Origin: Clostridia bacterium
GTDB taxonomy: Bacteria > Bacillota_A > Clostridia > Christensenellales > Aristaeellaceae
Assembly (NCBI GenBank): GCA_017432405.1
Contig: JAFRJF010000030.1
Span: 1 to 13,582, forward strand
Reading direction: 5' to 3'
DNA: 13,582 nt
Shown here: in pieces, positions 1 through 13,582 of the stretch
Layout of the letters: every line of letters starts with the position of its first letter
Position numbering within the stretch: position 1 is the first letter of the stretch
Program-made: the position numbers and the translations under genes
The notes under the pieces: model-generated
The model's input: only the letters and a program-made list of their open reading frames with translations
Database searches by the model: none
Told to the model about the DNA's origin: nothing

Positions 1-101
1 ACTACACCATCTTACCTCACACGACTTAATATTTTATGCACAGCTCCTTAATCCCTTGGGACGACACGCACGATATCGATATGTACGCGGCAGCCGCCAT
101 T

Positions 102-129
102 CCTATTGCCTATTCCCTATTGCCTATTG
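102..129. repeat. Heptanucleotide tandem repeat, four CCTATTS units
   Basis: Four consecutive 7-base units read CCTATTG, CCTATTC, CCTATTG, CCTATTG at 102-108, 109-115, 116-122 and 123-129, with a decayed fifth unit (CCTTG) after them. They lie in the AT-richer leader upstream of the permease/c-di-GMP gene, before its predicted promoter. Seven is not a multiple of three, so copy-number change would shift any frame, which argues against the region being coding. The repeat is seen directly; any role is unknown. Confidence 0.75.
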
Positions 130-187
130 CCTTGACGTCTCCCAGACAAATCAGTATTTGTTTATCTCCCAAAATCCACAAAAGCTA

Positions 188-217
188 TGGACAATCCCCC
201 GCCCCGCATGTTACAAT
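188..217 (+). promoter_or_regulatory. Probable sigma-A promoter of the permease/c-di-GMP gene
   Basis: A -35 box TGGACA (188-193, five of six consensus bases) is followed after 18 bases by a -10 box TACAAT (212-217, five of six). The start point would fall near 224, giving a leader of about 55 bases to the ATG at 279. Its position inside the upstream extension of the open frame is one reason to reject the ATG at 36 as the start. A weaker pair, TTGACG (132-137) with TATTTG (155-160), is also present. Prediction from pattern only. Confidence 0.5.
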
Positions 218-265
218 ATTATCAGGTAATTGTGGAAATATATTCTTGTATTCATTTTCTCGCAA

Positions 266-271
266 AAGGGG
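266..271 (+). promoter_or_regulatory. Ribosome binding site that decides the start of the permease fusion
   Basis: AAGGGG (266-271), preceded by two further A residues, sits 7 bases before ATG 279, which is good spacing. The in-frame ATG at 273 is only one base away from it and is too close. The first in-frame ATG of the open frame, at 36, has no ribosome binding site and precedes the likely promoter. Confidence 0.65.
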
Positions 272-278
272 TATGTCT

Positions 279-3200
279 ATGCAGACCAACAATCAGACAC
301 GGCTGGGCGCGCGGCTGTCGCCCTTCAACGCCTGGGCGTTCGCGCTGGGCACGGCGGTGGGCTGGGGCTCGCTGGTGGTGACGGCGAACAGCTATCTCGG
401 CCAGGCCGGACCGGTGGGCAGCGTGCTGGGCATCGTGCTGGGCACGCTGATCATGCTGTTCATCGGCCGGAACTACAGTTACATGATGCAGGTCTTTCCC
501 GACGCCGGCGGCGCCTATACCTACAGCCGCGAGGTGTTCGGCTACGACCACGGCTTTCTGACCGGCTGGTTTCTGACGCTGACCTACCTGGCGGTGCTGT
601 GGGCCAACGCCACGTCGATCCCCCTGTTCACCCGCTACTTTCTGGGCGGGTTGCTTCAGATCGGGAAGATGTACACCATATTCGGCTACGACGTCTACCT
701 GGGCGAGACCGTGGTCACCATCGCGGTGATCCTGGCCACGGCCTATCTGTGCACCCACAGCCACAAGCTCACCGTGGGGCTGATGACCGGCCTGGTCTGC
801 GTATTCTGTGGGGGGATCGTCGCCGTGTTCGTCGCGGCGATGCTCGGTTTGAAGATCCCCCTCGAGCCCCGCACCATTCCCGACGCCGGCGTCCTGGGAC
901 AGATCGTCAAGATCGCGGTCATCAGCCCCTGGGCCTTCATCGGCTTCGAGAGCATCTCCCACCGCACCGAGGAGTTCGCCTTCCCCCACAGGAAGATCTT
1001 CCGGGTGATGGTGGCGGCGCTGATCGCCACGGGGCTGCTGTACGCCCTGGTCACGCTGCTGTCCGTCACCGCCTATCCCGAGCGGTACGGCTCCTGGCTG
1101 GAATACATCCGGGATCGGGGCAACCTCTCGGGTATCGAGGCCGTTCCTGCCTTCTACGCCGCCCACCACTACCTGGGCGAGGGCGGCGTGTGGATACTGA
1201 TGGCCTCGCTGATAGCGCTGATCCTGACCTCCCTCATCGGCAACACCACCTGCCTGAGCCGCCTGTTCTACGCCCAGAGCCTGGACGGCATACTGCCCAA
1301 AAAGATCTCCGAGCTCAACGAACAGGGCGTGCCCGCCAACGCCATGAAGCTGATCGCGGCGGTGTCGGCGGTGGTTCCCTTCGTGGGCCGCACGGCCATC
1401 GGCTGGATCGTGGACGTCACCACCATCGGCGCCACGCTGATCTACGGCTTCGTGTCCGCCGCGGCCTACAAGACGGCGAAGAGCCGCAGGGACAAGGTGG
1501 AGAAGTGGACCGGCCTGATCGGCCTGGGGCTGATGATCGCCTTTGGCCTGTACATACTGCTGCCGAACCTGGTCTCCTACGGCTCGATGGAGCCCGAGAC
1601 CTATTTCCTGTTCGTGGTGTGGAGCGTGCTGGGCTTCCTGTTCTTCCGCGCCATACTGCGCAACGACAGGGAAAAGCGGTTCGGAGGCTCTGTGGTGGTG
1701 TGGATCGCGCTGCTGTCGCTGGTGCTGCTGATCAGCCTGATCTGGATGCGCCAGTCGATGATCGTGGCCAACGACCAGATGCTGGGCAGCATCAAGGCCT
1801 ACTACGCCGAGATCGGCGACGCCACCCGCATGGCCGACGAGGCCTATATCGAACAGCAGGCCAACTGGCTGGACACCCAGAACTCCCGCACGCTGCTGAT
1901 GGCCATCGTCATGTTCTCCATCGCCGTAGGCATGATGTTCTCGAACCACGCCTACCTGAGCCGGCGGGCGAATGAGAGCGAGCAGGCGGCCAACGTCGAC
2001 CCGATGACCGGCGTGAAGAGCAAGCACGCCTTCCTGAAGAAGGAGCGGGACATCGACGGAACCATCTCAGACGGCACCGTCAAGGATTTCGCCATAGCGG
2101 TCTGCGACGTGAACGGCCTGAAGAAGATCAACGATACCCTCGGCCACAAGGCCGGCGACGAATACATCTGCAAGGCCTCGAAGCTGATCTGCGAGATCTT
2201 CAAGCACAGCCCCGTCTACCGCACCGGCGGCGACGAATTCGTGGTCGTACTCACGGACCGGGATTACGCCGTGCGCAAGGAACTGATGAAGGTGCTGCAC
2301 GACCGCTCCGTGGACCACATCTCCACCGAGGGCGTGGTGGTCTCCGGCGGCATTTCCGACTTCGTCAGGGGCGAGGACGTCAGCTTCCACCAGGTCTTCG
2401 AGCGCGCAGACGCGCTGATGTATGAAGAAAAGCAGCTGCTGAAGGGCCTGGGCTCCATCAGCCGGGACGAGGACCCCGAGGAGGAAAAGCCCGGCGACGA
2501 GGCCTCCGTGCTCAACGTGCGCAAGAAGGTGCTGGTGGTCGAGGACGAGGCGGTCAACCGGATGATGCTGGGCAACGTCATCGAAGCCGATTACGACGTG
2601 CTCTACGCCGAGGACGGCATCGAGGCCATGCACCTGATCGAAGCCAACAAGGGCGACCTGGCGCTGCTGCTGCTGGATCTGCAGATGCCCCGCATGAACG
2701 GCATGGAGGTCCTCAAGGCCGTCAAGGCGGACAAGGACCTGCGGCAGCTGCCCATCATCGTGCTCACCGCCGACCAGGACGCGGAGCTGGAATGCCTGAA
2801 AATCGGCGCCGTGGATTTCATACCGAAGCCCTACCCCGCCTGGGAGATCGTCAAGGCCCGGGTGGACCGTTGCGTGGAGCTGTCCGAGAGCCGGGAGACC
2901 ATCAAATCCACCGAACGCGACGGCCTGACCAGGCTGTACAACATCGACTACTTCCTGCGCTACGTCAACCTGTACGACCAGCGCTACCCCGAGATGGCCA
3001 TGGACGCCGTGGTGGTGGACATCAACCAGTTCCACATGCTCAACGAGCGCTACGGCAAGCACTATGCCGACGATATCCTGCGAAAGATCGGCGAGGGCAT
3101 TCGCCGGGCGGCCCGCAGGATGGGCGGCGTGGGCTGTCGCCAGGGGGCCGACACCTTCCTGCTGTACTGCCCGTTCCACGAGGATTATTCCCCGCTGATG

Positions 3201-4586
3201 GAGCAGCTTGCCGCGGACGTGGCCGTGGACAACAGCGCCGCGGACCGGGTGCGCCTGCGCATGGGCGTCTATCCCCAGGTAGACAAGACGCTGGACATCG
3301 AGCGCCGCTTCGACAGGGCCAAGATGGCCGCCGATTCGGTCAAGAGCGGCCAGGCCCGGGCCATCGGCATCTACGACGCGGAGCTGCACGAGGCCGCGCT
3401 GTTCCGCGACCGGCTGCTGGAGGACTTCCACAGCTCTGTGGAAAACCGGCGCTTCAAGGTCTACTTCCAGCCCAAGTTTGACATCCGGCCCGACAAGCCG
3501 GTGCTCTCCAGCGCCGAGGCGCTGGTGCGCTGGGATCACCCCGAGCTGGGCCTGATCAGCCCGATGGTGTTCATACCGCTGCTGGAGGAGAGCGGCATGA
3601 TACTGGAACTGGACCGCTTCGTCTGGCGCGAGGCCGCCGCGCGCATCCGCCAGTGGAAGGACAAGTACGGCTTCGCCGTGCCCGTGTCCGTGAACGTGTC
3701 CAGGATCGACATGCTGAACCCGAACCTGAAGGGCATATTCAACGAGATCCTGGAAGCCTGCGACCTGGACACCGAGGACTTCATGCTGGAGATCACCGAG
3801 TCCGCCTACACCCGCGAATCCGACCAGGTGCTGTCCACCGCCCGGGAGCTGCGGGGCATGGGGATGGGCTTTCGCATCGAGATGGACGACTTCGGCACCG
3901 GCTATTCCTCGCTGGGCATGCTGACCAAGCTGCCCATCGACGCGCTGAAGCTGGATATGTCCTTCGTGCGCAGCGCCTTCGGGGAGAGGCGGGACGTGCG
4001 CATGATCGAGCTGATCATCGACATCGCCGAATACCTGCGGGTGCCCGTGGTGGCCGAGGGCGTGGAGACCGAGGAACAGCTGCTGGCGCTGAAGGAGCTG
4101 GGCTGCGACTACGTGCAGGGCTATTACTTCTCCAAGCCGGTGCCCGCCGAGGCGTTTGAGCGCTTCCTGGTGGAGCGCAGCAGGGACAGCGCCGAAATCA
4201 GCCCCGAGGTGCGCACCCGCTTCATGGGCGCTTCCGACTTCCTGGACAGCGACTGCGAGCGCATCTACTACATCGACACGCGCACCGATTGCTACCTGGA
4301 GTTCTACAGGGGCTCCCGGGGCGTGCTGGAGATTCGCCCCGGCGGCACCGACTTTTTCCGCGACGCCCCCATGAAGCTGCTGGACGGCGTGGCCGAGGAG
4401 GACGCCGAAAGGGTTCGTGACGCGCTGCAGAAGGGTCGCCTCGCCCCGGCGTCCTCCGGCGAGGCCGAGACCGTGACGACCTATCGCTGCCTGCGCGGCG
4501 GCGTACTGAAGCCCTGCCGACTGGTGACGATCCCCGCCCGCGACGGCGACGGCCACCACATCGTGATCGGCGTGAAGGCGGATTGA
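279..4586 (+). CDS. APC-family permease fused to GGDEF-REC-GGDEF-EAL-PAS-like c-di-GMP module
   Basis: Membrane protein of 1435 residues. Residues about 12-460 form an APC-superfamily amino-acid permease with roughly 12 hydrophobic segments, including the family-typical GFES...EEF region near 222-233. Two further membrane segments (about 470-492 and 538-556) flank a 45-residue, probably extracytoplasmic, loop. The cytoplasmic part has five modules. GGDEF-1 (570-720) has an intact GGDEF at 650-654 and should make c-di-GMP; the RxxD inhibitory site is absent. REC (748-870) has acidic pair E755/D756, phospho-acceptor D800, T830 and K850. GGDEF-2 (879-1035) is degenerate, with GADTF at 956-960. 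EAL (about 1048-1295) keeps E1080, N1139, E1171, D1203/D1204, K1224, E1260 and Q1280, so c-di-GMP hydrolysis looks possible. The tail (1326-1435) is PAS-like. The inferred role is coupling amino-acid availability or transport to c-di-GMP level; whether it still transports is unknown. ATG 279 was chosen for its ribosome binding site. The frame is unbroken, so the fusion is real in this sequence. Confidence 0.9.
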   Translation: MQTNNQTRLGARLSPFNAWAFALGTAVGWGSLVVTANSYLGQAGPVGSVLGIVLGTLIMLFIGRNYSYMMQVFPDAGGAYTYSREVFGYDHGFLTGWFLTLTYLAVLWANATSIPLFTRYFLGGLLQIGKMYTIFGYDVYLGETVVTIAVILATAYLCTHSHKLTVGLMTGLVCVFCGGIVAVFVAAMLGLKIPLEPRTIPDAGVLGQIVKIAVISPWAFIGFESISHRTEEFAFPHRKIFRVMVAALIATGLLYALVTLLSVTAYPERYGSWLEYIRDRGNLSGIEAVPAFYAAHHYLGEGGVWILMASLIALILTSLIGNTTCLSRLFYAQSLDGILPKKISELNEQGVPANAMKLIAAVSAVVPFVGRTAIGWIVDVTTIGATLIYGFVSAAAYKTAKSRRDKVEKWTGLIGLGLMIAFGLYILLPNLVSYGSMEPETYFLFVVWSVLGFLFFRAILRNDREKRFGGSVVVWIALLSLVLLISLIWMRQSMIVANDQMLGSIKAYYAEIGDATRMADEAYIEQQANWLDTQNSRTLLMAIVMFSIAVGMMFSNHAYLSRRANESEQAANVDPMTGVKSKHAFLKKERDIDGTISDGTVKDFAIAVCDVNGLKKINDTLGHKAGDEYICKASKLICEIFKHSPVYRTGGDEFVVVLTDRDYAVRKELMKVLHDRSVDHISTEGVVVSGGISDFVRGEDVSFHQVFERADALMYEEKQLLKGLGSISRDEDPEEEKPGDEASVLNVRKKVLVVEDEAVNRMMLGNVIEADYDVLYAEDGIEAMHLIEANKGDLALLLLDLQMPRMNGMEVLKAVKADKDLRQLPIIVLTADQDAELECLKIGAVDFIPKPYPAWEIVKARVDRCVELSESRETIKSTERDGLTRLYNIDYFLRYVNLYDQRYPEMAMDAVVVDINQFHMLNERYGKHYADDILRKIGEGIRRAARRMGGVGCRQGADTFLLYCPFHEDYSPLMEQLAADVAVDNSAADRVRLRMGVYPQVDKTLDIERRFDRAKMAADSVKSGQARAIGIYDAELHEAALFRDRLLEDFHSSVENRRFKVYFQPKFDIRPDKPVLSSAEALVRWDHPELGLISPMVFIPLLEESGMILELDRFVWREAAARIRQWKDKYGFAVPVSVNVSRIDMLNPNLKGIFNEILEACDLDTEDFMLEITESAYTRESDQVLSTARELRGMGMGFRIEMDDFGTGYSSLGMLTKLPIDALKLDMSFVRSAFGERRDVRMIELIIDIAEYLRVPVVAEGVETEEQLLALKELGCDYVQGYYFSKPVPAEAFERFLVERSRDSAEISPEVRTRFMGASDFLDSDCERIYYIDTRTDCYLEFYRGSRGVLEIRPGGTDFFRDAPMKLLDGVAEEDAERVRDALQKGRLAPASSGEAETVTTYRCLRGGVLKPCRLVTIPARDGDGHHIVIGVKAD

Positions 4587-4625
4587 TGGAGAACCACCGA
4601 TGACCATATATTTCACATACACTGC

Positions 4626-4631
4626 AAGGAG
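4626..4631 (+). promoter_or_regulatory. Ribosome binding site selecting a GTG start for the phosphatase
   Basis: AAGGAG lies 7 bases before GTG 4639, and translation from there gives a textbook signal peptide (MKKK followed by a hydrophobic core). An upstream in-frame ATG at 4600 also has a GGAG at 4588-4591 and would add 13 residues to the basic n-region, so it remains a possible alternative start. Confidence 0.65.
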
Positions 4632-4638
4632 AAAGCCC

Positions 4639-5946
4639 GTGAAAAAGAAACTGATGCTGATGCTCACCGTCGCCCTGGCCCTGTGCCTGATCGCCCAGGC
4701 CGCGCTGGCCGCGCCCGAGGGCTACACCCTGCGCCAGGTCACCATACTCAGCCGCCACAACCTGCGGGCACCGCTGTCCAGCAACGGGTCCGTGCCCGAG
4801 GAGCTGACCCCCCACGCCTGGAACGCGTGGACCGGCAATTCCAGCGAGCTGACGCTGAAGGGCGGCGCGCTGGAGATACGCATGGGCCAGTACTTCCGCA
4901 AATGGCTGGAAGGCGAGGGCCTGATCCCGGAAAACTACGTGCCCACCGACGGCGAGGTGCGCTTCTTCGCCCGGAACAAGCAGCGCTGCATCGCCACCGC
5001 CCGCTATTTCGCCACAGGCATGATGCCCCTGGCGGACACGGTCGTGGAATACACCGGCGACGCTAACCACCCCGACGACATTTTCAAGCCGGTGCTGCGC
5101 TACTACAGCGACGCCTACGCCGAAGCCGCCATCGCCAACGTCAACGAAATCGCCGATGAAAACGGCTTTGCCAGCGCCAGCGAGGCCCTGAAGGACGGCA
5201 TCGCGCTGGTGATGGACGTGGTCGACATGGCAGACAGCGAGATCTACCAGAGCGGCAAGTACGGCGACCTGCTGGCCGACCCCTCGGGCATCAACCTTGA
5301 ACCCGACCAGGAGCCGGACCTCTACGGCCCCATCAAGACCGCCAACCAGGTGGCCGACGCGCTGATGCTGCAGTATTACGAGATGCCCGACCCGGTGGCC
5401 GCCGCCTTCGGCCACGAGCTGACCGAGGAACAGTGGAAGCAGATCGTGGACGTGAAGGAGACCTTCGGCATGCTGCGCCACGGCGCGCCGCTAGTGGCCC
5501 TGTCCATCGCCAACCCGGTGGTGAAGGACATCTACAGCGAGCTGAAGAACGAAAACCGGGTGTTCAGCTTCAGCTGCGCCCACGACTGCACCATACTGGG
5601 CGTGTTGTCCTCCCTGGGCGTTAAGGACTACACGCTGCCGAACACACTGGAGATGCACACGCCCATCGGCGTAAAGCTGGTGTTCCAGCGCCTCACCGAC
5701 GAGGCCGGCGCGAACTGGTACGACGTGAGCATGATCTACCAGAGCACCCAGCAGACCCGTGAGGTCTCGGAGCTGACCCTGGACAATCCGCCGATGCGCT
5801 ACGCCCTGGATTTCAAGGGCGTGGAAAAGAACGCCGACGGCCTGATCGCCGAGGCGGACCTGCTGGGCCTGTTCGAGGGCGCCATGGACGCCTTCGACCA
5901 TCTGGACGAGCAGTACGGCGAGACGGAGATGGACGCCGCGGCGTAA
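4639..5946 (+). CDS. Secreted histidine acid phosphatase, glucose-1-phosphatase (Agp)-like
   Basis: A 435-residue exported phosphomonoesterase of histidine phosphatase branch 2 (acid phosphatase/phytase/Agp group). An N-terminal Sec signal peptide (KKK, then a Leu/Ala-rich core) probably ends at an Ala-X-Ala site near residue 24. The catalytic motif reads RHNLRAP at 39-45: H40 would be the phosphorylated nucleophile, with R39 and R43 binding phosphate. The RHN variant, with NGS shortly after, matches my recollection of E. coli Agp rather than the usual RHGxRxP. The C-terminal HD pair (H315, D316) supplies the proton donor, and the following TPIG...VFQR stretch is also Agp-like. The length is close to the roughly 410 residues of Agp. 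It starts 52 bases after the permease/c-di-GMP gene with no terminator between, so co-transcription is likely. Expected activity is release of phosphate from sugar phosphates or phytate outside the membrane; the substrate is not determined by sequence. Confidence 0.87.
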   Translation: MKKKLMLMLTVALALCLIAQAALAAPEGYTLRQVTILSRHNLRAPLSSNGSVPEELTPHAWNAWTGNSSELTLKGGALEIRMGQYFRKWLEGEGLIPENYVPTDGEVRFFARNKQRCIATARYFATGMMPLADTVVEYTGDANHPDDIFKPVLRYYSDAYAEAAIANVNEIADENGFASASEALKDGIALVMDVVDMADSEIYQSGKYGDLLADPSGINLEPDQEPDLYGPIKTANQVADALMLQYYEMPDPVAAAFGHELTEEQWKQIVDVKETFGMLRHGAPLVALSIANPVVKDIYSELKNENRVFSFSCAHDCTILGVLSSLGVKDYTLPNTLEMHTPIGVKLVFQRLTDEAGANWYDVSMIYQSTQQTREVSELTLDNPPMRYALDFKGVEKNADGLIAEADLLGLFEGAMDAFDHLDEQYGETEMDAAA

Positions 5947-5960
5947 CGCGCCGGGCCAGA

Positions 5961-6002
5961 CAAAGGGATGCCGGCATCAAAAGCCGGCATCCCGTTTGTT
6001 TG
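5961..6002. terminator. Bidirectional intrinsic terminator between convergent units
   Basis: A perfect 11-bp stem, GGGATGCCGGC (5965-5975) with GCCGGCATCCC (5983-5993), encloses a 7-base loop. On the + strand it is followed by GTTTGTTTG; on the - strand the run is the weaker TTTGT. It lies 18 bases after the phosphatase stop and 20 bases beyond the stop of the convergent GH32-like gene, so it can serve both transcripts. Confidence 0.85.
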
Positions 6003-6013
6003 ACCCGGGTTCT

Positions 6014-7531
6014 TCACGCTCCCGGTATCTTCATCGTGATATTGCAGAACACGGCATCGCCGTCTGAAGCAAAAACGCCGATGTGCGCGCCGCCCGTGGA
6101 GTGGCCGATGCGGGAGCTGAGGGCCTTTTGATCGTCGATGTACAGTACGACGATCTCATTTTCGCAGACCAGCGTTACATGGTGGCTCTGTTTTTCCGAG
6201 AAATCGAACCGCGTGACCGCCATCGGGGGATAGTCGTCAAGCTCTGTCAGCTCGTACCCCTCATAGTGCAGCAGGTTTCGCCCGGCGTCCAGGCACAGCG
6301 CGGTCCAGGCCGCGTCCGCCGCGCTGCCGCCGAAGGCAAATCCGGCGCAGCCGTCCGCGTCCAGCGTCACGTCGCACTCCAGCAGCATCGTCGGGGCGCG
6401 CACGCCCATGTCCGCCAGCGCGATTTCGCCGCCTGCCGCCGAGAGCTCGACGGCGTTTCCCCCAATCTCCGCCTTGCCCTCAACGTTTTTGACCTCAAAG
6501 GCCAGATCCTGGGCGAAGTAATCCCCAAAGGACTGCGGCGCCTTCACGCCCAGCGTCCCGTCCTCGCGCCGGACCAGCTGATGGTTGAGCGCATTGCCGG
6601 CCCACTGGTAGATACCGGAATCCGCGGACAGCCCGGCCCGGCCCAGCCAGCCGCACAGGTAGGTGTTCCCGTCCCACTCGGCGGTCTTGGCTGCGTAGAA
6701 CACGAAGCCGTTGCCCTCCATCAGGCCCTGGCCGTCCAGTATGTTGTCCTCCGGCGCGGCGAAGGGGCCGTTCATGGATTCGCCGACGGCGTAATAGGTG
6801 ACGCAGTCCCAGCTGTAGGTCAGATACCATGCGCCGTCCATGCAGAACAGGTCCGGGCATTCCAGCATGTACTGCGCCCGTGGCGCGTAGATCGGGCCCT
6901 CAAAGGTCCAATCCTTCAAATCCGGCGAGGTATACTTCGCGACCACGCCGCCCAGCGTCGCTTCCCGCGCCGCGATGAGCAGCCAGTAGCGCTGGTCCGC
7001 CTCCATCCAGAACACTTCCGGGTCGCGGAAGTCGTCCCTGGAGTAGCCCTCCGGGCTGAAGAAGGTGTCCTCCGGGTGCTTTTCCCAGCGCACGCGGTCC
7101 GGGCTCGTGGCGTGCATGACGCACTCCTTGCCCATGCCGCCGTTGCCGGTATCGTTATGGCCGGTGTAGAAGAGGTGATACAGTCCCTCCCGGTCCCGCA
7201 GGACCGAGCCGGTGCCCAGGGCCGGATCGGGGTCGGACATGAGGCCGTATTCCAGCATCATGCCATCGTCCGCGTAATCGACAAAATCATCCGTGGTAAA
7301 CCTGTAGATCGGATGATAGCCCTGGCCGTTGTGATCGGTGTCGTACAGGTAATAGAGCTCGAGGGTGCCGTCCTCGGTCACAAAGGGCATGGTGTCGCCC
7401 ACATAGCCGCCCTCCGGCGCGGGATAGAGGCGGTAGTCCACCGGCGCATAGGCCTCGGTCAGGGCGCATGGCGCGATGATAGAAGCGAAGAGCGCCATCA
7501 AGGCCGCCAGGGCCACCGATCTTCTGTTCAT
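6014..7531 (-). CDS. Secreted GH32-like glycoside hydrolase (probable fructan-active enzyme)
   Basis: A 505-residue exported protein related to glycoside hydrolase family 32 (beta-fructosidases). The signal peptide spans about residues 1-29 (NRR, hydrophobic core, then an AYA cleavage site); the cysteine at 22 follows a proline and does not fit a lipobox. The five-bladed propeller domain carries the three acidic motifs in order: D46 in GDTMPF at the nucleophile position (classical GH32 reads WMNDPNG), D170 in FRDPEVF as transition-state stabiliser, and E224 in ECPDLF as acid/base. The C-terminal part, from about 345, looks like the beta-sandwich usual in the family. The start ATG 7531 was chosen because AAAGGAG stands 8 bases before it and the signal peptide begins there; an in-frame ATG at 7564 lacks these. 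It is the last gene of the - strand cluster. It probably hydrolyses levan, inulin or a related fructan outside the cell, but the altered nucleophile motif leaves specificity open. Confidence 0.8.
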   Translation of the reverse strand: MNRRSVALAALMALFASIIAPCALTEAYAPVDYRLYPAPEGGYVGDTMPFVTEDGTLELYYLYDTDHNGQGYHPIYRFTTDDFVDYADDGMMLEYGLMSDPDPALGTGSVLRDREGLYHLFYTGHNDTGNGGMGKECVMHATSPDRVRWEKHPEDTFFSPEGYSRDDFRDPEVFWMEADQRYWLLIAAREATLGGVVAKYTSPDLKDWTFEGPIYAPRAQYMLECPDLFCMDGAWYLTYSWDCVTYYAVGESMNGPFAAPEDNILDGQGLMEGNGFVFYAAKTAEWDGNTYLCGWLGRAGLSADSGIYQWAGNALNHQLVRREDGTLGVKAPQSFGDYFAQDLAFEVKNVEGKAEIGGNAVELSAAGGEIALADMGVRAPTMLLECDVTLDADGCAGFAFGGSAADAAWTALCLDAGRNLLHYEGYELTELDDYPPMAVTRFDFSEKQSHHVTLVCENEIVVLYIDDQKALSSRIGHSTGGAHIGVFASDGDAVFCNITMKIPGA

Positions 7532-7539
7532 ATCCTGTT

Positions 7540-7546
7540 CTCCTTT
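7540..7546 (-). promoter_or_regulatory. Ribosome binding site of the secreted GH32-like gene
   Basis: AAAGGAG on the - strand is 8 bases from ATG 7531. It excludes the longer reading with a start at 7564, which would place this site inside the coding region. Confidence 0.7.
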
Positions 7547-7571
7547 CTCGTGGGAACGGCACACTAAGGAA

Positions 7572-7607
7572 GGGACTGGAGGCCAGTCAAGCCTGGCATC
7601 CAGTCCC
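7572..7607 (-). terminator. Strong hairpin after the ATPase gene (terminator or attenuating stem-loop)
   Basis: An outer perfect 9-bp stem, GGGACTGGA (7572-7580) with TCCAGTCCC (7599-7607), is topped by an inner 5-bp stem GCCAG (7582-7586) with CTGGC (7593-7597) around a 6-base loop. On the - strand the stem is followed by TTCCTTAG, a poor U-tract, so it may terminate only partly or protect the upstream mRNA. A -10-like TACAAT on the - strand (7609-7614) immediately precedes it but has no convincing -35 box. Confidence 0.55.
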
Positions 7608-7624
7608 GATTGTATATACTCAGA

Positions 7625-8779
7625 TCAGAAGTCGTAATTCTTGCACATCGGCGCGTTGTTCCTGTAGGATTCCTCGTCGAACCAGATCATGTTGTTGCCG
7701 CTGGCCTTGTCGAACAGCTGGATCAGCCTGGGCTGGGTGGTGAAGTGGATCGTCTTGCCCATGGAGACGTCCACGGTCAGGTCGACGGTGGGGATCACCA
7801 TTACCACCTCGTCGTTGTTGCTGCGGGTGTGCAGGTTGACCTCGGTGCCCAGCATCTCGGAAACCTCGATCAGCGCGGTCAGCTCGCCCTCGCCCACGGT
7901 GATGTGCTGGGGACGGATGCCCGCCACGATGTCGCAGGGCTGCTGGTGCTTGTCGCGCAGCACCCGCTGCTGGAAGGCGTCCAGCTCAAACCGCACGCCG
8001 CGAATCTCCGCGTAATAGACACCGTTCTCCAACAGCAGCTTGCAGTTGTCGAAGAAGTTCATCACGGGCATGCCGATGAAGCCTGCCACGAACAGGTTTA
8101 CGGGCTTGTTGAACACCTCCACCGGGGTGCCGATCTGGTTGACAAAGCCGTCCTTCATGATGACGATGCGGTCGCCCAGGGTCATGGCCTCGGTCTGGTC
8201 GTGGGTGACGTACATGAAGGTGGTGTTGATGCGCTGGCGCAGCTTGATGATCTCGGCGCGCATCTGGTTGCGCAGCTTGGCGTCCAGGTTGGACAGGGGC
8301 TCGTCCATCAGGAACACCTTGGGGTCGCGCACCATGGCGCGGCCGATGGCCACGCGCTGCCTCTGGCCGCCTGAAAGGGCCTTGGGCTTGCGGTCCAGGT
8401 ACTGGGTGATGTCGAGGATCTGGGCCACCTCGCGCACCTTCTTGTCGATGACCGCCTTGGGCGTCTTCTTCAGCTTCAGCGCGAAGGCCATGTTGTCATA
8501 GACCGACAGATGGGGATACAGCGCGTAGCTCTGGAAGACCATGGCGATGTCCCTGTCCTTGGGGGCCACGTCGTTGCAAAGCCTGCCGTCGATGTACAGC
8601 TCGCCGTCGGAGATGTCCTCCAGGCCGGCGACCATGCGCAGCGTGGTGGACTTGCCGCAGCCGGAGGGGCCGACCAGCACGATGAATTCCTTGTCGGCGA
8701 TCTCCAGATTCACGTCGTGAACGGCCACGACATTGCCGTCATAAACCTTCTTCAGATCCTTCAGCAAAACAGTAGACAT
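7625..8779 (-). CDS. ugpC: Carbohydrate ABC transporter ATP-binding protein, MsmX/UgpC family
   Basis: A 384-residue cytoplasmic ATPase that powers CUT1-type sugar importers. It has Walker A GPSGCGKS (37-44), Q-loop Q83, signature LSGGQ (135-139), Walker B VFLMDEP (155-161, catalytic E160) and switch H193. After the nucleotide-binding domain, residues from about 235 form the OB/TOBE regulatory region typical of MalK/UgpC/MsmX. Family members are often encoded away from their permeases and shared by several importers; here the gene sits in the fructan cluster, which suggests service to the LplC-type permease at the right edge and perhaps to others. The symbol denotes the family, not glycerol-phosphate specificity. 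ATG 8779 lacks a well-spaced ribosome binding site: the nearest good match, GGAGGA (8805-8810), is 25 bases away. A hairpin follows the stop codon. Confidence 0.93.
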   Translation of the reverse strand: MSTVLLKDLKKVYDGNVVAVHDVNLEIADKEFIVLVGPSGCGKSTTLRMVAGLEDISDGELYIDGRLCNDVAPKDRDIAMVFQSYALYPHLSVYDNMAFALKLKKTPKAVIDKKVREVAQILDITQYLDRKPKALSGGQRQRVAIGRAMVRDPKVFLMDEPLSNLDAKLRNQMRAEIIKLRQRINTTFMYVTHDQTEAMTLGDRIVIMKDGFVNQIGTPVEVFNKPVNLFVAGFIGMPVMNFFDNCKLLLENGVYYAEIRGVRFELDAFQQRVLRDKHQQPCDIVAGIRPQHITVGEGELTALIEVSEMLGTEVNLHTRSNNDEVVMVIPTVDLTVDVSMGKTIHFTTQPRLIQLFDKASGNNMIWFDEESYRNNAPMCKNYDF

Positions 8780-8997
8780 AGCGTATTGCTCTGGCAGCCG
8801 GGATTCCTCCGGGGCGGCCTCGCGTCACGTATCAAACGCCATTGCGCCTCTCGTGAACCGCATTACGACAGGTCTCCACACTGCCGCACCGCGAGCCTGC
8901 GGACTTGCTTCCTCCTTCTTGAATGTGAACGGGGCCAATATGTGGAGTGGCGCCGTCCCATTGGAATATGGTCGAAAGTTCGATTCTATCGGTCATG
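8780..8997. other. 218-base gap between fructokinase and ATPase genes
   Basis: This is the longest gap in the cluster and contains no convincing gene. On the - strand it holds two purine-rich Shine-Dalgarno-like stretches, one at about 8908-8915 (AAGGAGGA) with no open frame of note behind it and one at 8805-8810 (GGAGGA) before the ATPase. A -10-like TAGAAT on the - strand (8983-8988) follows the kinase stop but its -35 is poor. It may hold a weak internal promoter for the ATPase, which is not demonstrated. Confidence 0.4.
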
Positions 8998-9963
8998 TCA
9001 GTGTTCTTCCAGCAGCGCTTCCACCAGCCCGCGCTCTGGCATGGAGCGAATCGCGCCCTTCCTGGTGGTCACCAGGTATGCCGCCGCGTTGGCGAAGCGG
9101 AGCATAGCCCGCAGTTCATCCTTGGAAAGGCCGTCCGTGCCGTGCGCCAGCACGAAGTCCAGAACGCTTGCGCAGAAGGTGTCCCCCGCCCCGGTGGTCT
9201 CGATGGTGCCGCCCAGCAGGAAGCTGGGAACGAAGATCTTCCTGTCCCCGCAGAAGGCATAGCTTCCGTTGGCCCCGGCGGTGACGTTCAGCAGCCGGAT
9301 GCCCGGGAAGCGCTCCCTCAGGAGCCGCGCGCCCTTCTCGTAGTCCGATGTGTCGGTGAGAAACTCGATCTCGTTGTCGGCGATCTTCACCACGTCCGCC
9401 TGGGAAAGCCCCCAGAGCATCTGGGCCCTGGCCTCGTTCAGGCTGTCCCAGAGGGGCGGGCGCAGGTTCGGGTCGAAGGAGATGATCGCCCCGGCCTCCT
9501 TCGCCGCCAGCACCGCGGCCCTGGTGGCCTGCCGCACGGCCCCGTGGGTCATGGACAGCGTGCCAAAGTGGAAGATCCGCGTATCGCGAATCATATCCAT
9601 GGGCAGCTCGTCCTCGGTGAGCATCATGTCCGCGCCGGGATTGCGGTAAAAGGAGAAATCCCTGTCGCCGTCCTCGTAGGTCTTGACGAAGGCCAGCGTG
9701 GTATGGACGGCATCGTCCATGCGCAGGGCGCCCATGTCGATGCCGGCTTCCTCGGCGACGGCCTTCAGCTGGTGGCCGAACATGTCGTTGCCCACCTTGC
9801 CGACGAAGGCGCAGCGCCTGTCCAGCTTCCTAAGCATCGCCAGCACATTGCAGGGCGCGCCGCCGGGATTGGCCTCGAAGACCGGATTGCCCTGCGCGCT
9901 CGTGCCGTTCTCGGTAAAGTCGATCAGCAGCTCGCCCAGCGCGACGACATCATATCGCTTCAT
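8998..9963 (-). CDS. scrK: PfkB-family fructokinase
   Basis: A 321-residue cytoplasmic sugar kinase of the ribokinase/PfkB family. The N-terminal substrate region has GELLIDF (10-16) and the GGAPCNV...VGNDMFG block (34-63), as in bacterial fructokinases of sucrose operons; FDPNLRP (163-169) precedes the C-terminal ATP site. The anion hole and catalytic base are in TTGAGDTF, with GAGD at 258-261 and D261 as base. It would convert ATP and fructose to fructose-6-phosphate. Its ATG overlaps the stop of the upstream GH32 gene by one base (TAATG), so translation is probably coupled, and the pairing with a beta-fructosidase supports fructose as substrate. A different ketose or a 2-keto-3-deoxy sugar acid cannot be excluded from sequence alone, but the context makes it less likely. 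Confidence 0.9.
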   Translation of the reverse strand: MKRYDVVALGELLIDFTENGTSAQGNPVFEANPGGAPCNVLAMLRKLDRRCAFVGKVGNDMFGHQLKAVAEEAGIDMGALRMDDAVHTTLAFVKTYEDGDRDFSFYRNPGADMMLTEDELPMDMIRDTRIFHFGTLSMTHGAVRQATRAAVLAAKEAGAIISFDPNLRPPLWDSLNEARAQMLWGLSQADVVKIADNEIEFLTDTSDYEKGARLLRERFPGIRLLNVTAGANGSYAFCGDRKIFVPSFLLGGTIETTGAGDTFCASVLDFVLAHGTDGLSKDELRAMLRFANAAAYLVTTRKGAIRSMPERGLVEALLEEH

Positions 9964-11462
9964 TATTCTTCTTCCTCTTTTTCAAAGATCAGGTCGTGCT
10001 TGTCCACGTCCATCAGCACCTCGCCCTCGGCCTCAAAGCTGATCACGTCCGCGCTGACGGGGGTATACATCACGAAGCTGGCGGCCTGCTCGCCGTCGTT
10101 GACGAACAGCTCCAGGCTGTGCCTGTCCATGACCACCCGCAGCCTGATGCAGCCGTGCCTGGAATAGACCGGGAACTCCCGCACATGCACGATGTCAAAC
10201 GGGTATCCGCAGCGGGAGCGGTCCACGCGAACGAGCGCCTGGCCGGGCTTGTAGCGGATCGTGGTGACGTGTTCGCCGTCCTTGGCCAGGTTCATCCTGA
10301 AGGCGTGGTACATCTCGCTGCCGTTGGCGGGTCGCACGTTCACGGTCATGTCGATGGTGCGCCCGCGGATGCCCGTCAGGAAGGTCTCGGTGGACAGGGG
10401 CACGTTCTTGTAGCTGATCTTTTCGCCGTAGTAGTTCTCGATCTCCCGCACGGGCTGCTGGATCAGCCGGCCGTCCCGTATGGACAGCTCCCTGGGCAGG
10501 GTCATCTGGCCGCAGATGCGGTCGGTGGCGGGATGGCTGCGCGCCGTATCCCAGTTCTGCAGCCAGGCGATCATGACGCGCCTGCCGTCCAGCGCCTTGA
10601 GCGTCTGGGGCGCGTAGAAATCGATGCCGTAGTCGATGGCATGGACGTTCTCGCGGATCAGGTGCTTCTTCTCGTTCTCCTGGCCGATCATGCAGACGGT
10701 GCCGTTGCCCGCGTGGAATTCCAGCCCCATGGGGCTCATCTCCTGGGGGCTGACCATCAGCACGTCCTTGCCGTCCAGCTTGAAGTAATCCGGGCATTCC
10801 CACATCATGCCGTACTGACGATGGTTGGAGGCCACGCGGCCCTGATAGGTCCAGTGGAAGGCGTCCTCGCTCTTGAACAGCAGGATCGAGCCGCTGCCGT
10901 CGGAGGGGCGATTGCCCACCACGGCATAGTAGCTGTCGCCCTCCTTCCACATCTTGGGGTCGCGGAAGTCCTCGGTGCTGCCGCCCTTGGGCAGGTCCTT
11001 CGCGGTGAGCACGGGATTGGCGTCGAGCTTTTCATAGTTCACGCCGTCCCCCACGGCCAGGCACTGGGTCTGGAAGGGCTTCATCGAGCCGTCCGCCTGA
11101 CGCTCCTCGCGCACGCCGGTGTACATCAGCAGCTGGCGGCCGTCCGGCAGCTCGATGGCGCTGCCGGAAAAGCAGCCGTCCTTGTCGTAGGGCATGTCCG
11201 GGGCCAGCGCCGCAGGAAGCCGCTCCCAGCGGATGAAATCCTTCGTCTTGAGGTGTCCCCAGTGCATCGGTCCCCAGATGGCCTTGTAGGGGTAGTACTG
11301 GTGAAACAGGTGGTACTCGCCCTTGTAGACGGAGAACCCGTTGGGATCGTTGATCCAGCCGATGGCTCCGGTGACGTGAAATTCCGGACGTTCCTCCTGC
11401 GGTACATAGGACATGTACTGGGATTCAAAATCCCGCGCCTTCTGCAAAGTCTGGCTGATCAT
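9963..11462 (-). CDS. Cytoplasmic GH32 beta-fructosidase (sucrose/fructo-oligosaccharide hydrolase)
   Basis: A 499-residue glycoside hydrolase of family 32 with no signal peptide, hence intracellular. The propeller domain shows all three catalytic motifs: WINDPNG (36-42, nucleophile D39), FRDP (166-169, stabiliser D168) and WECPDYF (221-227, acid/base E222). The C-terminal region from about 345 is the beta-sandwich domain of the family. The reaction is hydrolysis of terminal beta-D-fructofuranosyl residues. Annotation pipelines often call such proteins sucrose-6-phosphate hydrolase, but import here is by an ABC system and not a PTS, so unphosphorylated sucrose or short fructans are the likelier substrates. 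The start ATG 11462 has AGGAAGG 8 bases upstream (11471-11477). The C-terminal Glu run overlaps the ribosome binding site of the next gene, the fructokinase. The solute-binding protein gene lies upstream, separated by a stem-loop. Confidence 0.93.
   Translation of the reverse strand: MISQTLQKARDFESQYMSYVPQEERPEFHVTGAIGWINDPNGFSVYKGEYHLFHQYYPYKAIWGPMHWGHLKTKDFIRWERLPAALAPDMPYDKDGCFSGSAIELPDGRQLLMYTGVREERQADGSMKPFQTQCLAVGDGVNYEKLDANPVLTAKDLPKGGSTEDFRDPKMWKEGDSYYAVVGNRPSDGSGSILLFKSEDAFHWTYQGRVASNHRQYGMMWECPDYFKLDGKDVLMVSPQEMSPMGLEFHAGNGTVCMIGQENEKKHLIRENVHAIDYGIDFYAPQTLKALDGRRVMIAWLQNWDTARSHPATDRICGQMTLPRELSIRDGRLIQQPVREIENYYGEKISYKNVPLSTETFLTGIRGRTIDMTVNVRPANGSEMYHAFRMNLAKDGEHVTTIRYKPGQALVRVDRSRCGYPFDIVHVREFPVYSRHGCIRLRVVMDRHSLELFVNDGEQAASFVMYTPVSADVISFEAEGEVLMDVDKHDLIFEKEEEE
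9973..9977 (-). promoter_or_regulatory. Ribosome binding site of fructokinase inside the GH32 C-terminal codons
   Basis: The last codons of the GH32 gene (GAG GAA GAA GAA TAA) supply a GAGGA purine run 9 bases before the kinase ATG at 9963. The acidic tail and the translation signal therefore share the same bases. Confidence 0.5.
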
Positions 11463-11491
11463 AAGCGTTTCCTTCCTGTTGCGGTTTCGGT

Positions 11492-11555
11492 TGGGTCAAA
11501 GGGAACCATCCTCCCCCGAGAGGGGAGAAGAGGGGGAGGATGGCATATGGGTCAA
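11492..11555. repeat. Stem-loop flanked by 8-bp direct repeats, between binding-protein and GH32 genes
   Basis: A perfect 12-bp inverted repeat, CCATCCTCCCCC (11506-11517) and GGGGGAGGATGG (11532-11543), with a 14-base purine-rich loop is bracketed by identical copies of TGGGTCAA at 11492-11499 and 11548-11555. On the - strand the stem is followed by TTCCCTTTG, a weak U-run. It may act as a partial terminator or as mRNA protection after the highly expressed binding-protein gene. The flanking direct repeats also resemble a target duplication around a small palindromic element. Confidence 0.7.
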
Positions 11556-11560
11556 TTCAA

Positions 11561-13192
11561 TCAGCCCGCGAAGTAGGCGTCCAGGTACTTCTGGTGGATC
11601 TCCAGGTAACGGTCCAGGCCGTAGGCCTTCAGGTCGTTCTGGAACTGGTCCCAGTCAGCGTCGGTGAAGCCGTTCATCACCCAGTCGGACTTGGCGGTAT
11701 TGATGCACTTGGTCAGGTCGGCCTGCAGGTTGGAGATCTCCTTCATGTCCGCCTCGTTGAAGAACACGTCGGGGAACACATAGTCGTTGTTCATGTCGGG
11801 GGTGTAGACGTCCTTGATCCAGTTGAGGCGGTAGGCCGCGTCGTCGGGCAGGGTCACGTACTTGCCGTAGTAGCTGTCCAGGATGGCCAGGGGGCCCCAT
11901 ACGCACTCGGCCTCGCGAACCTCGACGGGAGAGGCGTCGCCCAGCCAGGCGTGCTTCAGCATGGGCTCGCCGGCGTCGTTGGTGCTCATCTCGAAGATGT
12001 CGAACTCGTCATCCTCGCCGTAGGTGCCCCAGTTGTTCTGGGGGGACTGGATCGGATCATACATCTGGTCGACCCAGGCGCAGACCAGCTCGGGGTTCTT
12101 GCAGGTGGCGGTCACGACGCAGCGGCCACGGTTGAAGCCGGAGGTATAGGAGGTGTTCTGGGGGGTGATGTTGCGCACGTCGGCAGTCAGCGCGGGCAGC
12201 GGCACCCAGCTCTTGCCGGCGATCAGGTCGTCCATGCTGACCTGGGCGACGTTGGCCACGTCCCAGGTGAAGCAAACGCCGTAGCGGCCGGACTTGCCCT
12301 TGGCCACATAGGTGGACCATTCCTGAGTGAAGGCCTCGGGGTCGATCAGGCCTTCCTCGTACAGCTTGTGCATCCACGCGGTGCCCTTCTTGAAGCCCTC
12401 GGTGGTGGCCACGCTGATGACCTGCTTGTCGTTGGTCACGGCGATATGACGGCCGCTGTCCACGTCGCCATAGCCCTCGCCGAAGCCGTTGATCAGGAGG
12501 AAGGGATCCTCGCCGCCGTTCATGATGAAGGACATGGGGATGATGGAGCCGTCGATGCCGAACTCGGCCTTCAGGGCGTCGGCGTTGTCTCGGAAGGCGA
12601 TCAGGGCCGCCTCGAAGTCGTCCACGGTGGTGGGCACTTCCAGCTTCAGGAAGTCCAGCCAGCCCTTGTTGATGAAGGGCATGGCGCCGACGGTCTGGAT
12701 GGCGGTCTTCTCATAGCCCAGCTGCTCGATCCAGGGGAAGGCCCAGATGTGGCCGTTCTCGTCGGTGCACATCACGCGATACTCGGGCGCCTGCTCGAAC
12801 ACCTTCTGCAGGTTGGGCATGCAGGTGTCGATGTACTTCTCCACCGGAATGATGGCGCCCTGCTTGGCGTACCTCAGAAGGTCGTTGTTGTCAAAACCGG
12901 CGTTGAACACCAGCTCCGGCAGGGTCTTGGGGTTGGACATCTCCAGGGTGATCTTGTCGCCCCACTGGTCGGACTGGATGGTGCGCCACTCGACGTGCAC
13001 GTTGGTGGCCTCCTCCAGGCGCTTGAAGATGGTGCGGTTGTTGGGGTCGGGTTCGGTGCCCACGCCATAGTTGGTCAGGGCGGTGAAGCTCTCGGTGTTC
13101 TCCAGCGGGAAGGTGTAGCCGTCGGCCAGGGCGGCGCTCGCCAGCATTGCCAGGCACAGGCACAGGGCCAGGATCATGGAAATCTTACGCAT
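11561..13192 (-). CDS. Extracellular sugar-binding protein of ABC importer (LipO/YtcQ-like)
   Basis: A 543-residue family 1 extracellular solute-binding protein that would capture an oligosaccharide for the adjacent ABC permease. The N-terminus (MRK, a Leu/Ala/Cys-rich core, then ASAALA-D) is a signal peptide with probable cleavage after about residue 23. C11 and C13 lie inside the hydrophobic core and are preceded by Leu, so there is no standard lipobox, which is unusual for a Gram-positive binding protein. The length is larger than MalE-type proteins (about 400) and matches the LipO/YtcQ group that accompanies LplB/LplC permeases, such as the one 63 bases upstream. ATG 13192 has AAGGAG 8 bases before it. 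The GH32 and fructokinase genes downstream suggest sucrose, fructo-oligosaccharide or another fructoside as ligand. The ligand is inference from neighbours. Confidence 0.88.
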   Translation of the reverse strand: MRKISMILALCLCLAMLASAALADGYTFPLENTESFTALTNYGVGTEPDPNNRTIFKRLEEATNVHVEWRTIQSDQWGDKITLEMSNPKTLPELVFNAGFDNNDLLRYAKQGAIIPVEKYIDTCMPNLQKVFEQAPEYRVMCTDENGHIWAFPWIEQLGYEKTAIQTVGAMPFINKGWLDFLKLEVPTTVDDFEAALIAFRDNADALKAEFGIDGSIIPMSFIMNGGEDPFLLINGFGEGYGDVDSGRHIAVTNDKQVISVATTEGFKKGTAWMHKLYEEGLIDPEAFTQEWSTYVAKGKSGRYGVCFTWDVANVAQVSMDDLIAGKSWVPLPALTADVRNITPQNTSYTSGFNRGRCVVTATCKNPELVCAWVDQMYDPIQSPQNNWGTYGEDDEFDIFEMSTNDAGEPMLKHAWLGDASPVEVREAECVWGPLAILDSYYGKYVTLPDDAAYRLNWIKDVYTPDMNNDYVFPDVFFNEADMKEISNLQADLTKCINTAKSDWVMNGFTDADWDQFQNDLKAYGLDRYLEIHQKYLDAYFAG

Positions 13193-13200
13193 GGTAAATT

Positions 13201-13206
13201 CTCCTT
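13201..13206 (-). promoter_or_regulatory. Ribosome binding site of the binding-protein gene
   Basis: AAGGAG on the - strand, 8 bases before ATG 13192, within the 63-base gap after the permease gene. The gap also holds a 5-bp hairpin (CAGGC/GCCTG, 13220-13235), too weak to call a terminator, so the permease and binding-protein genes probably share a transcript. Confidence 0.7.
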
Positions 13207-13255
13207 TTCTGTTATTGCACAGGCTTTCACGCCTGCAGTGTTAAGGATTGACGGG

Positions 13256-13582
13256 TCATCCCTTGACGGCGCCGGCCATGATGCCGCTGTCAAAGTACCT
13301 CTGGAAGAAGGGATACATGATCAGCAGCGGCAGGCTGGAGATGATGATGGTGGCGTACTTCAGAAGCTCGGCCAGCTGGGCGCGGGCGGCGGTGGACTGC
13401 ATGTCGGAGACCATGCCGGGCTCCGGCTGGCTCTGGATCAATATGCCGCGCAGCACCAGCTGCAGGGGCTGCTTGGAGACGTCGTTCAGGTAGATCATGG
13501 CGTCGAAGTAGCTGTTCCACATGCCCACGAACTGCCACATGCAGATGGTGGCGATGATCGGCGTGCAGACCGGCAGCAGGAT
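13256..13582 (-). CDS. LplC/YtcP-type carbohydrate ABC permease, C-terminal part (cut by window edge)
   Basis: Only the last 108 residues are visible; the frame is open to the right edge, so the gene is partial because of the window and not broken. The visible part begins with LLPVCTP, the end of the cytoplasmic EAA coupling loop, then a membrane segment, then WNSYFDAMIYL and LQLVLRGIL. A final membrane segment (YATIIISSLPLLIMYPFFQ) follows, and the protein ends in GIMAGAVKG. The WNSYF...IYL and C-terminal GAVKG signatures are typical of the LplC/YtcP branch of CUT1 sugar permeases. Its LplB-type partner should be encoded further right. Together with the binding protein and the MsmX/UgpC-type ATPase it would form the importer for the fructoside. 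Confidence 0.92.
   Translation of the reverse strand: MLLPVCTPIIATICMWQFVGMWNSYFDAMIYLNDVSKQPLQLVLRGILIQSQPEPGMVSDMQSTAARAQLAELLKYATIIISSLPLLIMYPFFQRYFDSGIMAGAVKG

Follow-up and report, generated by a model that had tools for sequence, protein, structure and literature searches.

Can a complete amino acid permease and a full set of enzymes for making and degrading the second messenger cyclic dimeric guanosine monophosphate (c-di-GMP) belong to one protein, and what would such a protein do? This question is raised by a gene at 279..4586 on the forward strand of a 13,582-nucleotide stretch of Clostridia bacterium DNA (assembly GCA_017432405.1, contig JAFRJF010000030.1, positions 1 to 13,582), the whole of which was analysed and is referred to as the window. 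The fused protein is probably an APC-type transceptor, in which the state of the permease would set a diguanylate cyclase through a membrane hairpin and phosphorylation of a REC domain would set a phosphodiesterase.

A single frame kept among relatives

The open reading frame at 279..4586 (+) contains no internal stop and encodes 1435 amino acids, the stop codon being counted in the coordinates. Mechanically the frame opens at 36; with AAAAGGGG sitting 7 nt upstream, the ATG at 279 is the likelier start. Its domains follow in the order AA_permease_2, two-helix membrane hairpin, GGDEF1, REC, degenerate GGDEF2, EAL and weakly PAS-like tail, with Pfam matches to AA_permease_2 at residues 13-428 (98 bits, cut-off 27), GGDEF at 571-719 (117.1 bits, with two GGDEF stretches in the protein), Response_reg at 751-859 (76.5 bits) and EAL at 1050-1287 (205.6 bits). 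The initial annotation had described a transporter followed without interruption by GGDEF, REC, GGDEF and EAL modules, and both Pfam and the reading frame bear this out.

Relatives were sought by a protein search with residues 1-570, which returned 1258 relatives at E<=1e-3, and by a genome scan with residues 1-569, a query that stops short of GGDEF. From the scan the 80 best-scoring of 478 stretches were kept (79 distinct), so the sampled loci are not neutral. Permease and GGDEF lie in one frame in 76 of these 79 loci: 39 carry APC-GGDEF only (the short form, as in the gene at L051:4093-6279), 35 have REC-GGDEF-EAL attached, with or without the tail (the long form), L016 is built likewise with an extra GGDEF2 stretch, and L013 reads APC-GGDEF-GGDEF beside a separate REC-GGDEF-EAL gene. 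The remainder comprise L065, an APC-EAL protein in which the queries used detected no GGDEF, L069, a 770-aa protein for which no output domain was detected, and the broken L073. The architecture check that had been proposed for this gene therefore favours the fusion, and two genes parted at the permease/GGDEF junction, as the opposite outcome would have it, are seen only in the broken L073; two-gene relatives split after GGDEF1 instead.

That gene calling or assembly joined two genes by mistake is given practically no chance. The relatives are mostly metagenome-assembled genomes (MAGs) and one locus is broken, which would suit such an error, but the frame is common to the 76 loci, including that of the named strain Lachnospiraceae AC2029 (L031), and GGDEF is present in all of the best 120 of the 1258 protein relatives. 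The artefact or two-gene reading of this junction was rejected on the shared frame.

By its relatives, the host of the fused gene is a gut anaerobe. Record names assign 71 of the 79 loci to Bacillota, 7 to Actinomycetota and 1 to Chloroflexota; ruminant gut sites are named for 21, and 28 are RUG isolates, a label which we take to mean rumen. The closest relative, L001, is 97-98% identical to the window gene. Output-free permeases among the shorter matches mostly look like truncated or broken family members (41 inspected by eye and 10 scanned with Pfam, among the best 120 of 400). Unusual layouts were also encountered: P0149 runs from APC and hairpin through a partial GGDEF to a LuxR-type helix-turn-helix end, a single example that may stem from a chimeric contig, and L052, L075 and L105 hold REC-GGDEF-EAL proteins with two or three tail-like stretches followed by further GGDEF.

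The permease core and its pocket

The APC permease core spans residues 1-470 (279..1688, +; Pfam 13-428) and has 12 membrane helices by the AlphaFold2 (AF2) model and by eye. Compared with solved structures, the modelled permease has the APC (LeuT-type) fold and resembles AdiC, LAT and CAT; the VIA-align rows span model residues 6-470 only, and the hairpin fold lies outside this comparison. The motif WAFIGFE of transmembrane helix 6 (TM6) is kept by the window permease and invariant across 98 aligned rows, and the permease loops, like TM6, look intact and conserved as in working carriers.

The TM1 motif reads GWG (residues 28-30, 360..368, +), and W29 is found in 82/82 GGDEF/EAL-fused and 13/13 kinase-fused rows. 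Since the free-standing relatives L173 and L174 also read G-W-G, this tryptophan cannot be sustained as the mark of a dead transporter. The TM5 lysine of GkApcT is absent from all 82 GGDEF/EAL-fused rows (F in 76, I in 3, L in 3) and from all 13 kinase rows (L), at a position that is approximate, as an alignment gap adjoins it, and in counts that leave four 'other' rows outside the pocket columns.

The proposed hairpin coupler

Between permease and cyclase, the AF2 model and a hairpin alignment (A1; 27 rows, PAS-type rows included) place helix 1 at residues 473-511 (1695..1811, +), which is TM13 heading outward, and helix 2 at residues 517-571 (1827..1991, +), which is TM14 and, as modelled, passes into GGDEF1 without a break. 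Searches with A1 gave matches in 9/9 chosen genomes at E<=1e-3 and, at E<=1e-6, in 5/291 genomes of the class of G001, 7/246 of the class of G006 and 20/299 of the family of G002, each sample counting its centre genome; every frame listed in these genome searches is at least 733 aa long.

Matches to A1 are full-length in GGDEF proteins, PAS-GGDEF proteins and one kinase group; in a second kinase group they cover about its first half. Because A1 holds PAS-type rows, its match to PAS-GGDEF proteins follows in part from how the alignment was built. Among the kinase-type loci, L091, L092, L093 and L096 match over nearly the full length, and L094, L095, L097 and L098 over about the first half.

Cytoplasmic domains and selection

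GGDEF1 (residues 571-719, 1989..2435, +) has an intact signature at 650-654, kept in 194/198 ungapped rows including the window, and RxxD is absent ahead of GGDEF1 in 199/199 rows. The RxxD inhibitory site is common in diguanylate cyclases and not required. The REC domain (residues 751-859, 2529..2855, +) carries the phospho-acceptor Asp 800 and the motifs VVEDE, LLLDLQMP, IVLTAD and PKP, and its lysine is kept in 147/147 rows; an acidic pair, Asp, Thr and Lys make up the REC motif set. GGDEF2 (about residues 880-1040, bounds set by the analyst; 2916..3398, +) is degenerate, reading GADTF at 956. The EAL domain (residues 1050-1287, 3426..4139, +) retains its catalytic motifs: EAL is present in 145/148 ungapped rows, and the window also has LEITE, DDFGTG, KLD and AEGVETEEQ, which belong to the metal-binding and catalytic set of such phosphodiesterases. 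Diguanylate cyclase and EAL phosphodiesterase activities are predicted from these kept motifs. The module list of the initial annotation thus holds for the first GGDEF, REC and EAL, all intact, and needs correcting for the second GGDEF, which is degenerate.

The tail (residues 1302-1435, 4182..4583, +), also called PAS-like at the outset, has no Pfam match. Its AF2 model (predicted local distance difference test score 78.1) resembles PAS-type folds weakly, the best match being PYP (E 8.6e-4, TM-scores 0.42/0.45, root-mean-square deviation 9.3), with CACHE-type receptors also listed.

The permease, hairpin and enzyme domains are under purifying selection. Ratios of nonsynonymous to synonymous substitution rates (Ka/Ks) against L001, L002, L003 and L005 are 0.13-0.27 for the permease, 0.13-0.22 for the hairpin, 0.08-0.22 for GGDEF1 and 0.10-0.41 for REC, GGDEF2 and EAL; selection is weaker in the tail (0.23-0.86), and one pair has a value as high as 1.0 in the 20-residue linker that precedes REC.

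Origin of the fusion

Gene adjacency at short loci and the grouping of EAL domains suggest that the window gene is a two-gene unit, APC-GGDEF plus a neighbouring REC-GGDEF-EAL gene, in fused form. Judged on stop-to-stop frames, a same-strand REC-GGDEF-EAL gene lies within 600 bp at 17/39 short loci versus 3/36 long loci (Fisher p 6.1e-4), the three long loci (L004, L006, L007) being close kin; flanks exceed 2.3 kb on both sides at 26/39 short and 26/36 long loci. Any EAL gene is found within 600 bp at 19/39 short loci, two of which, L027 with a convergent gene and L076, are excluded from the 17; the neighbour at L076 is divergent and encodes GGDEF-EAL but no REC, and the EAL tree places its EAL outside the family group. 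The p value is 1.2e-4 for 19/39, 2.8e-4 for 18/39 and 1.1e-3 when the near-copies L012 and L072 are counted once.

In the EAL tree, the long-form EAL domains form one clade (37 long rows and the piece from L073; Shimodaira-Hasegawa-like approximate likelihood ratio test, SH-aLRT, 99), nested in a 66-row group (SH-aLRT 95) with all 27 separate REC-GGDEF-EAL rows; outside this group lie the APC-EAL row and 4 of the 6 remaining EAL rows. The permease tree needs 4 changes between short and long form, one of them affected by L013, which is labelled long there despite its APC-GGDEF-GGDEF layout and separate REC-GGDEF-EAL gene. Both trees are quick ones, with long branches and unsure roots.

Related permeases with other outputs

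The L001 locus contains two kinase genes divergent from the fused gene, one encoding a 934-aa APC-HK-REC protein (HK, histidine kinase) that belongs to the second kinase group and the other a PAS-HK-REC-REC protein. A kinase neighbour for the window gene, considered by analogy with L001, was dropped because the two differ in their upstream DNA. Used as a query, the first 545 residues of the APC-HK protein from L001 matched 1908 proteins (E<=1e-3), with HisKA in 119 of the best 120 of them. Seven A1-matched frames, chosen by length or source from the 7 of 8 fetched loci that were scanned (L190 left out), proved by Pfam to be APC-HK-REC in three cases, APC-PAS-GGDEF in three and the long GGDEF/EAL form in one.

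The permease tree gathers every GGDEF/EAL-fused row into one group (84 rows, SH-aLRT 99), with kinase-fused rows outside it, and four standalone-labelled rows lie outside both the GGDEF/EAL and kinase groups (SH-aLRT 95); of the latter, L173 (477 aa) and L174 (478 aa) are free-standing, and L172 and L175 are frames of 710 and 642 aa. Two further kinase-side proteins were noted, namely a 551-aa kinase-type APC at L170:2073-3725 (-), with a hairpin by eye, no output domain and a convergent kinase-like frame beside it, and a 1790-aa APC-HK-REC at L183:1936-7305 (+), in which some 800 residues past REC have no Pfam match at E<=0.001.

Proposed mechanism and its alternatives

In the mechanism proposed for the fused protein, the 12-helix permease core would bind an amino acid or a similar solute, which it may also transport, and its conformation would be passed to the hairpin through TM13, an outer helical stretch and TM14, the last of which is modelled as one helix continuous into GGDEF1. 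In a presumed dimer, the hairpin would shift the paired GGDEF1 domains into or out of a productive arrangement, thereby setting c-di-GMP synthesis, and GGDEF1, because it lacks RxxD, should escape product inhibition of the RxxD form. The REC-GGDEF2-EAL half would degrade c-di-GMP and would be switched when a presumed partner, a hybrid kinase, phosphorylates REC; some relatives do have kinase genes beside them, hybrid kinases at L006 and L007 among them. The net effect would be that nutrient input acts on the cyclase and a phospho-signal on the phosphodiesterase within one polypeptide.

The suggestion that the gene encodes a transceptor setting c-di-GMP remains the best reading, given conservation, purifying selection and kin with other outputs; we infer the ligand, transport and direction of control. 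Control running from permease to cyclase, with the permease as input module, is favoured because one permease-hairpin type carries several outputs, an arrangement that, judged from sequence, would be more in keeping with a sensor module than with a transporter under regulation. A wider proposal, on which we are evenly divided, is that Clostridia, Erysipelotrichia and Coriobacteriia share a large APC transceptor family with one permease-hairpin sensor and swappable outputs (GGDEF, PAS-GGDEF, HK-REC), whose c-di-GMP branch, as two genes or one fused, would be a two-input switch from amino acid to cyclase and from phosphorelay to phosphodiesterase.

Several points weigh against the transceptor. 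Nearly all relatives are MAGs, the pocket is unusual in its TM1 tryptophan (two free-standing relatives are alike) and in the missing TM5 lysine, and the counts of membrane helices come from AF2 and inspection by eye. In the second kinase group, the likeness of the hairpin past TM13 is by eye only. As for the kinase partner, window DNA upstream of about position 162 is unlike L001, and a kinase gene within 600 bp occurs at 9/39 short and 9/36 long loci and was not found at the other 30 and 27, in part because of contig ends.

How far does this evidence leave room for other explanations? A narrower form of the transceptor reading, not its opposite, makes the permease a receptor only, which binds and signals without transport. 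It has the pocket residues in its favour, along with the finding that in 7/13 genomes picked for holding the family every AA_permease_2 match listed (E<=1e-6) shares its frame with an output domain or hairpin, although these genomes are largely MAGs of uncertain completeness and only AA_permease_2 was counted. As the tryptophan also occurs in two free-standing permeases, and carrier loops and TM6 are conserved, with the core and the enzymes under selection of similar strength, this form is a real but less than probable possibility. Control might also run in reverse, the cytoplasmic enzymes or c-di-GMP regulating an ordinary transporter, for which c-di-AMP-bound KimA (8b70), among the solved structures matching the model, offers a precedent of nucleotide control in this fold, and to which the apparently intact loops and TM6 would be suited. 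Such reverse control is nevertheless very unlikely, since HK-REC outputs on related permeases would be an odd means of gating a transporter and the kept active sites of GGDEF1 and EAL exceed the needs of a binding switch. It is likewise unlikely that the fusion is a mere tether, co-localising transporter and enzymes without allosteric coupling: coupling is a prediction, which leaves room for a tether, but the hairpin is conserved under purifying selection, and in the AF2 model helix 2 leads directly into GGDEF1, where a flexible tether is accordingly not predicted.

Surroundings of the gene

Just downstream of the fused gene lies a histidine acid phosphatase gene (4600-5943, +), for which the nearest NCBIfam model is glucose-1-phosphatase/inositol phosphatase, under its cut-off. 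The opposite strand holds a cluster at 6014-13540 (-) resembling fructan/sucrose use, with two GH32 genes, a PfkB kinase, an ABC ATPase, a solute-binding protein and a possible membrane component in a partial frame. A stretch of about 650 bp (6759-7411) in the first GH32 gene has no counterpart in L001, where the frame is shorter. A malK-I RNA (Rfam RF03069, 115.3 bits) at 8774-8965 (-) lies directly upstream of the MalK-like ABC ATPase gene (7625-8779) and is also present in L001. Near the fused gene, no c-di-GMP riboswitch reached the gathering score in the 8 sources searched.

Comparison with known systems

If the transceptor reading is true, one control input to c-di-GMP in these anaerobes would be amino acids, sensed by means of a transporter fold, and the APC-GGDEF protein of about 735 aa, with its simple c-di-GMP readout, would suit studies of transporter-enzyme coupling. 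Many database entries named 'amino acid permease' may be sensors, in view of the 1258 GGDEF-side and 1908 kinase-side matches (E<=1e-3), sets that may overlap; APC-HK-REC proteins carry that very label in those sources that name them. In the open-access literature searched, no paper on the APC-GGDEF version was found, which is weak evidence of absence, and no description of the APC-HK-REC architecture either.

Among the systems closest in kind are the SLC5-STAC proteins, already described with GGDEF as well as kinase outputs (PMC5715377, citing Korycinski 2015), and CbrA has been called a transceptor with a STAC coupler and LeuT-type topology (PMC13022988). The initial annotation had contrasted the c-di-GMP output with CbrA-like kinases; because of the SLC5-STAC proteins with GGDEF, c-di-GMP output alone is no distinguishing mark, and APC-histidine kinase relatives exist as well, one of them near L001. 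Like CbrA and CrbS, the window protein joins a transporter via a coupling element to a signalling output. It differs in its APC transporter (only AA_permease families in Pfam at E<=0.001), in having 14 membrane helices (by AF2 and eye) rather than 13, in the added REC-GGDEF-EAL, and in its coupler, a membrane hairpin instead of the four-helix STAC, with helix 517-571 entering GGDEF1 and no separate bundle in the AF2 model (no STAC profile was searched by name). Taken with SLC5-STAC, the proposed transceptor would, if true, suggest repeated recruitment of LeuT-fold transporters to signalling with different couplers, their independence being a suggestion only.

There are further likenesses. The Amt5-type ammonium sensor histidine kinase (PMC10433425) also uses a transporter protein as the receptor for an attached signalling domain, but with another transporter family, ligand and output. 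The 5TMR/S-component receptors with GGDEF/EAL (PMC11109136) likewise set a transporter-like membrane fold on c-di-GMP enzymes, theirs being the S-component fold. GkApcT, AdiC and other APC carriers share the permease core fold, the TM6 motif having been compared with GkApcT, whereas GkApcT and AdiC are free-standing and GkApcT, the carrier compared residue by residue, has G-T-G in TM1 and the TM5 lysine. The APC-HK-REC proteins have a related permease and extra membrane helices ahead of the output, with the hairpin alignment matched over its full length in L091-L093 and L096, and differ in that their output is a hybrid histidine kinase.

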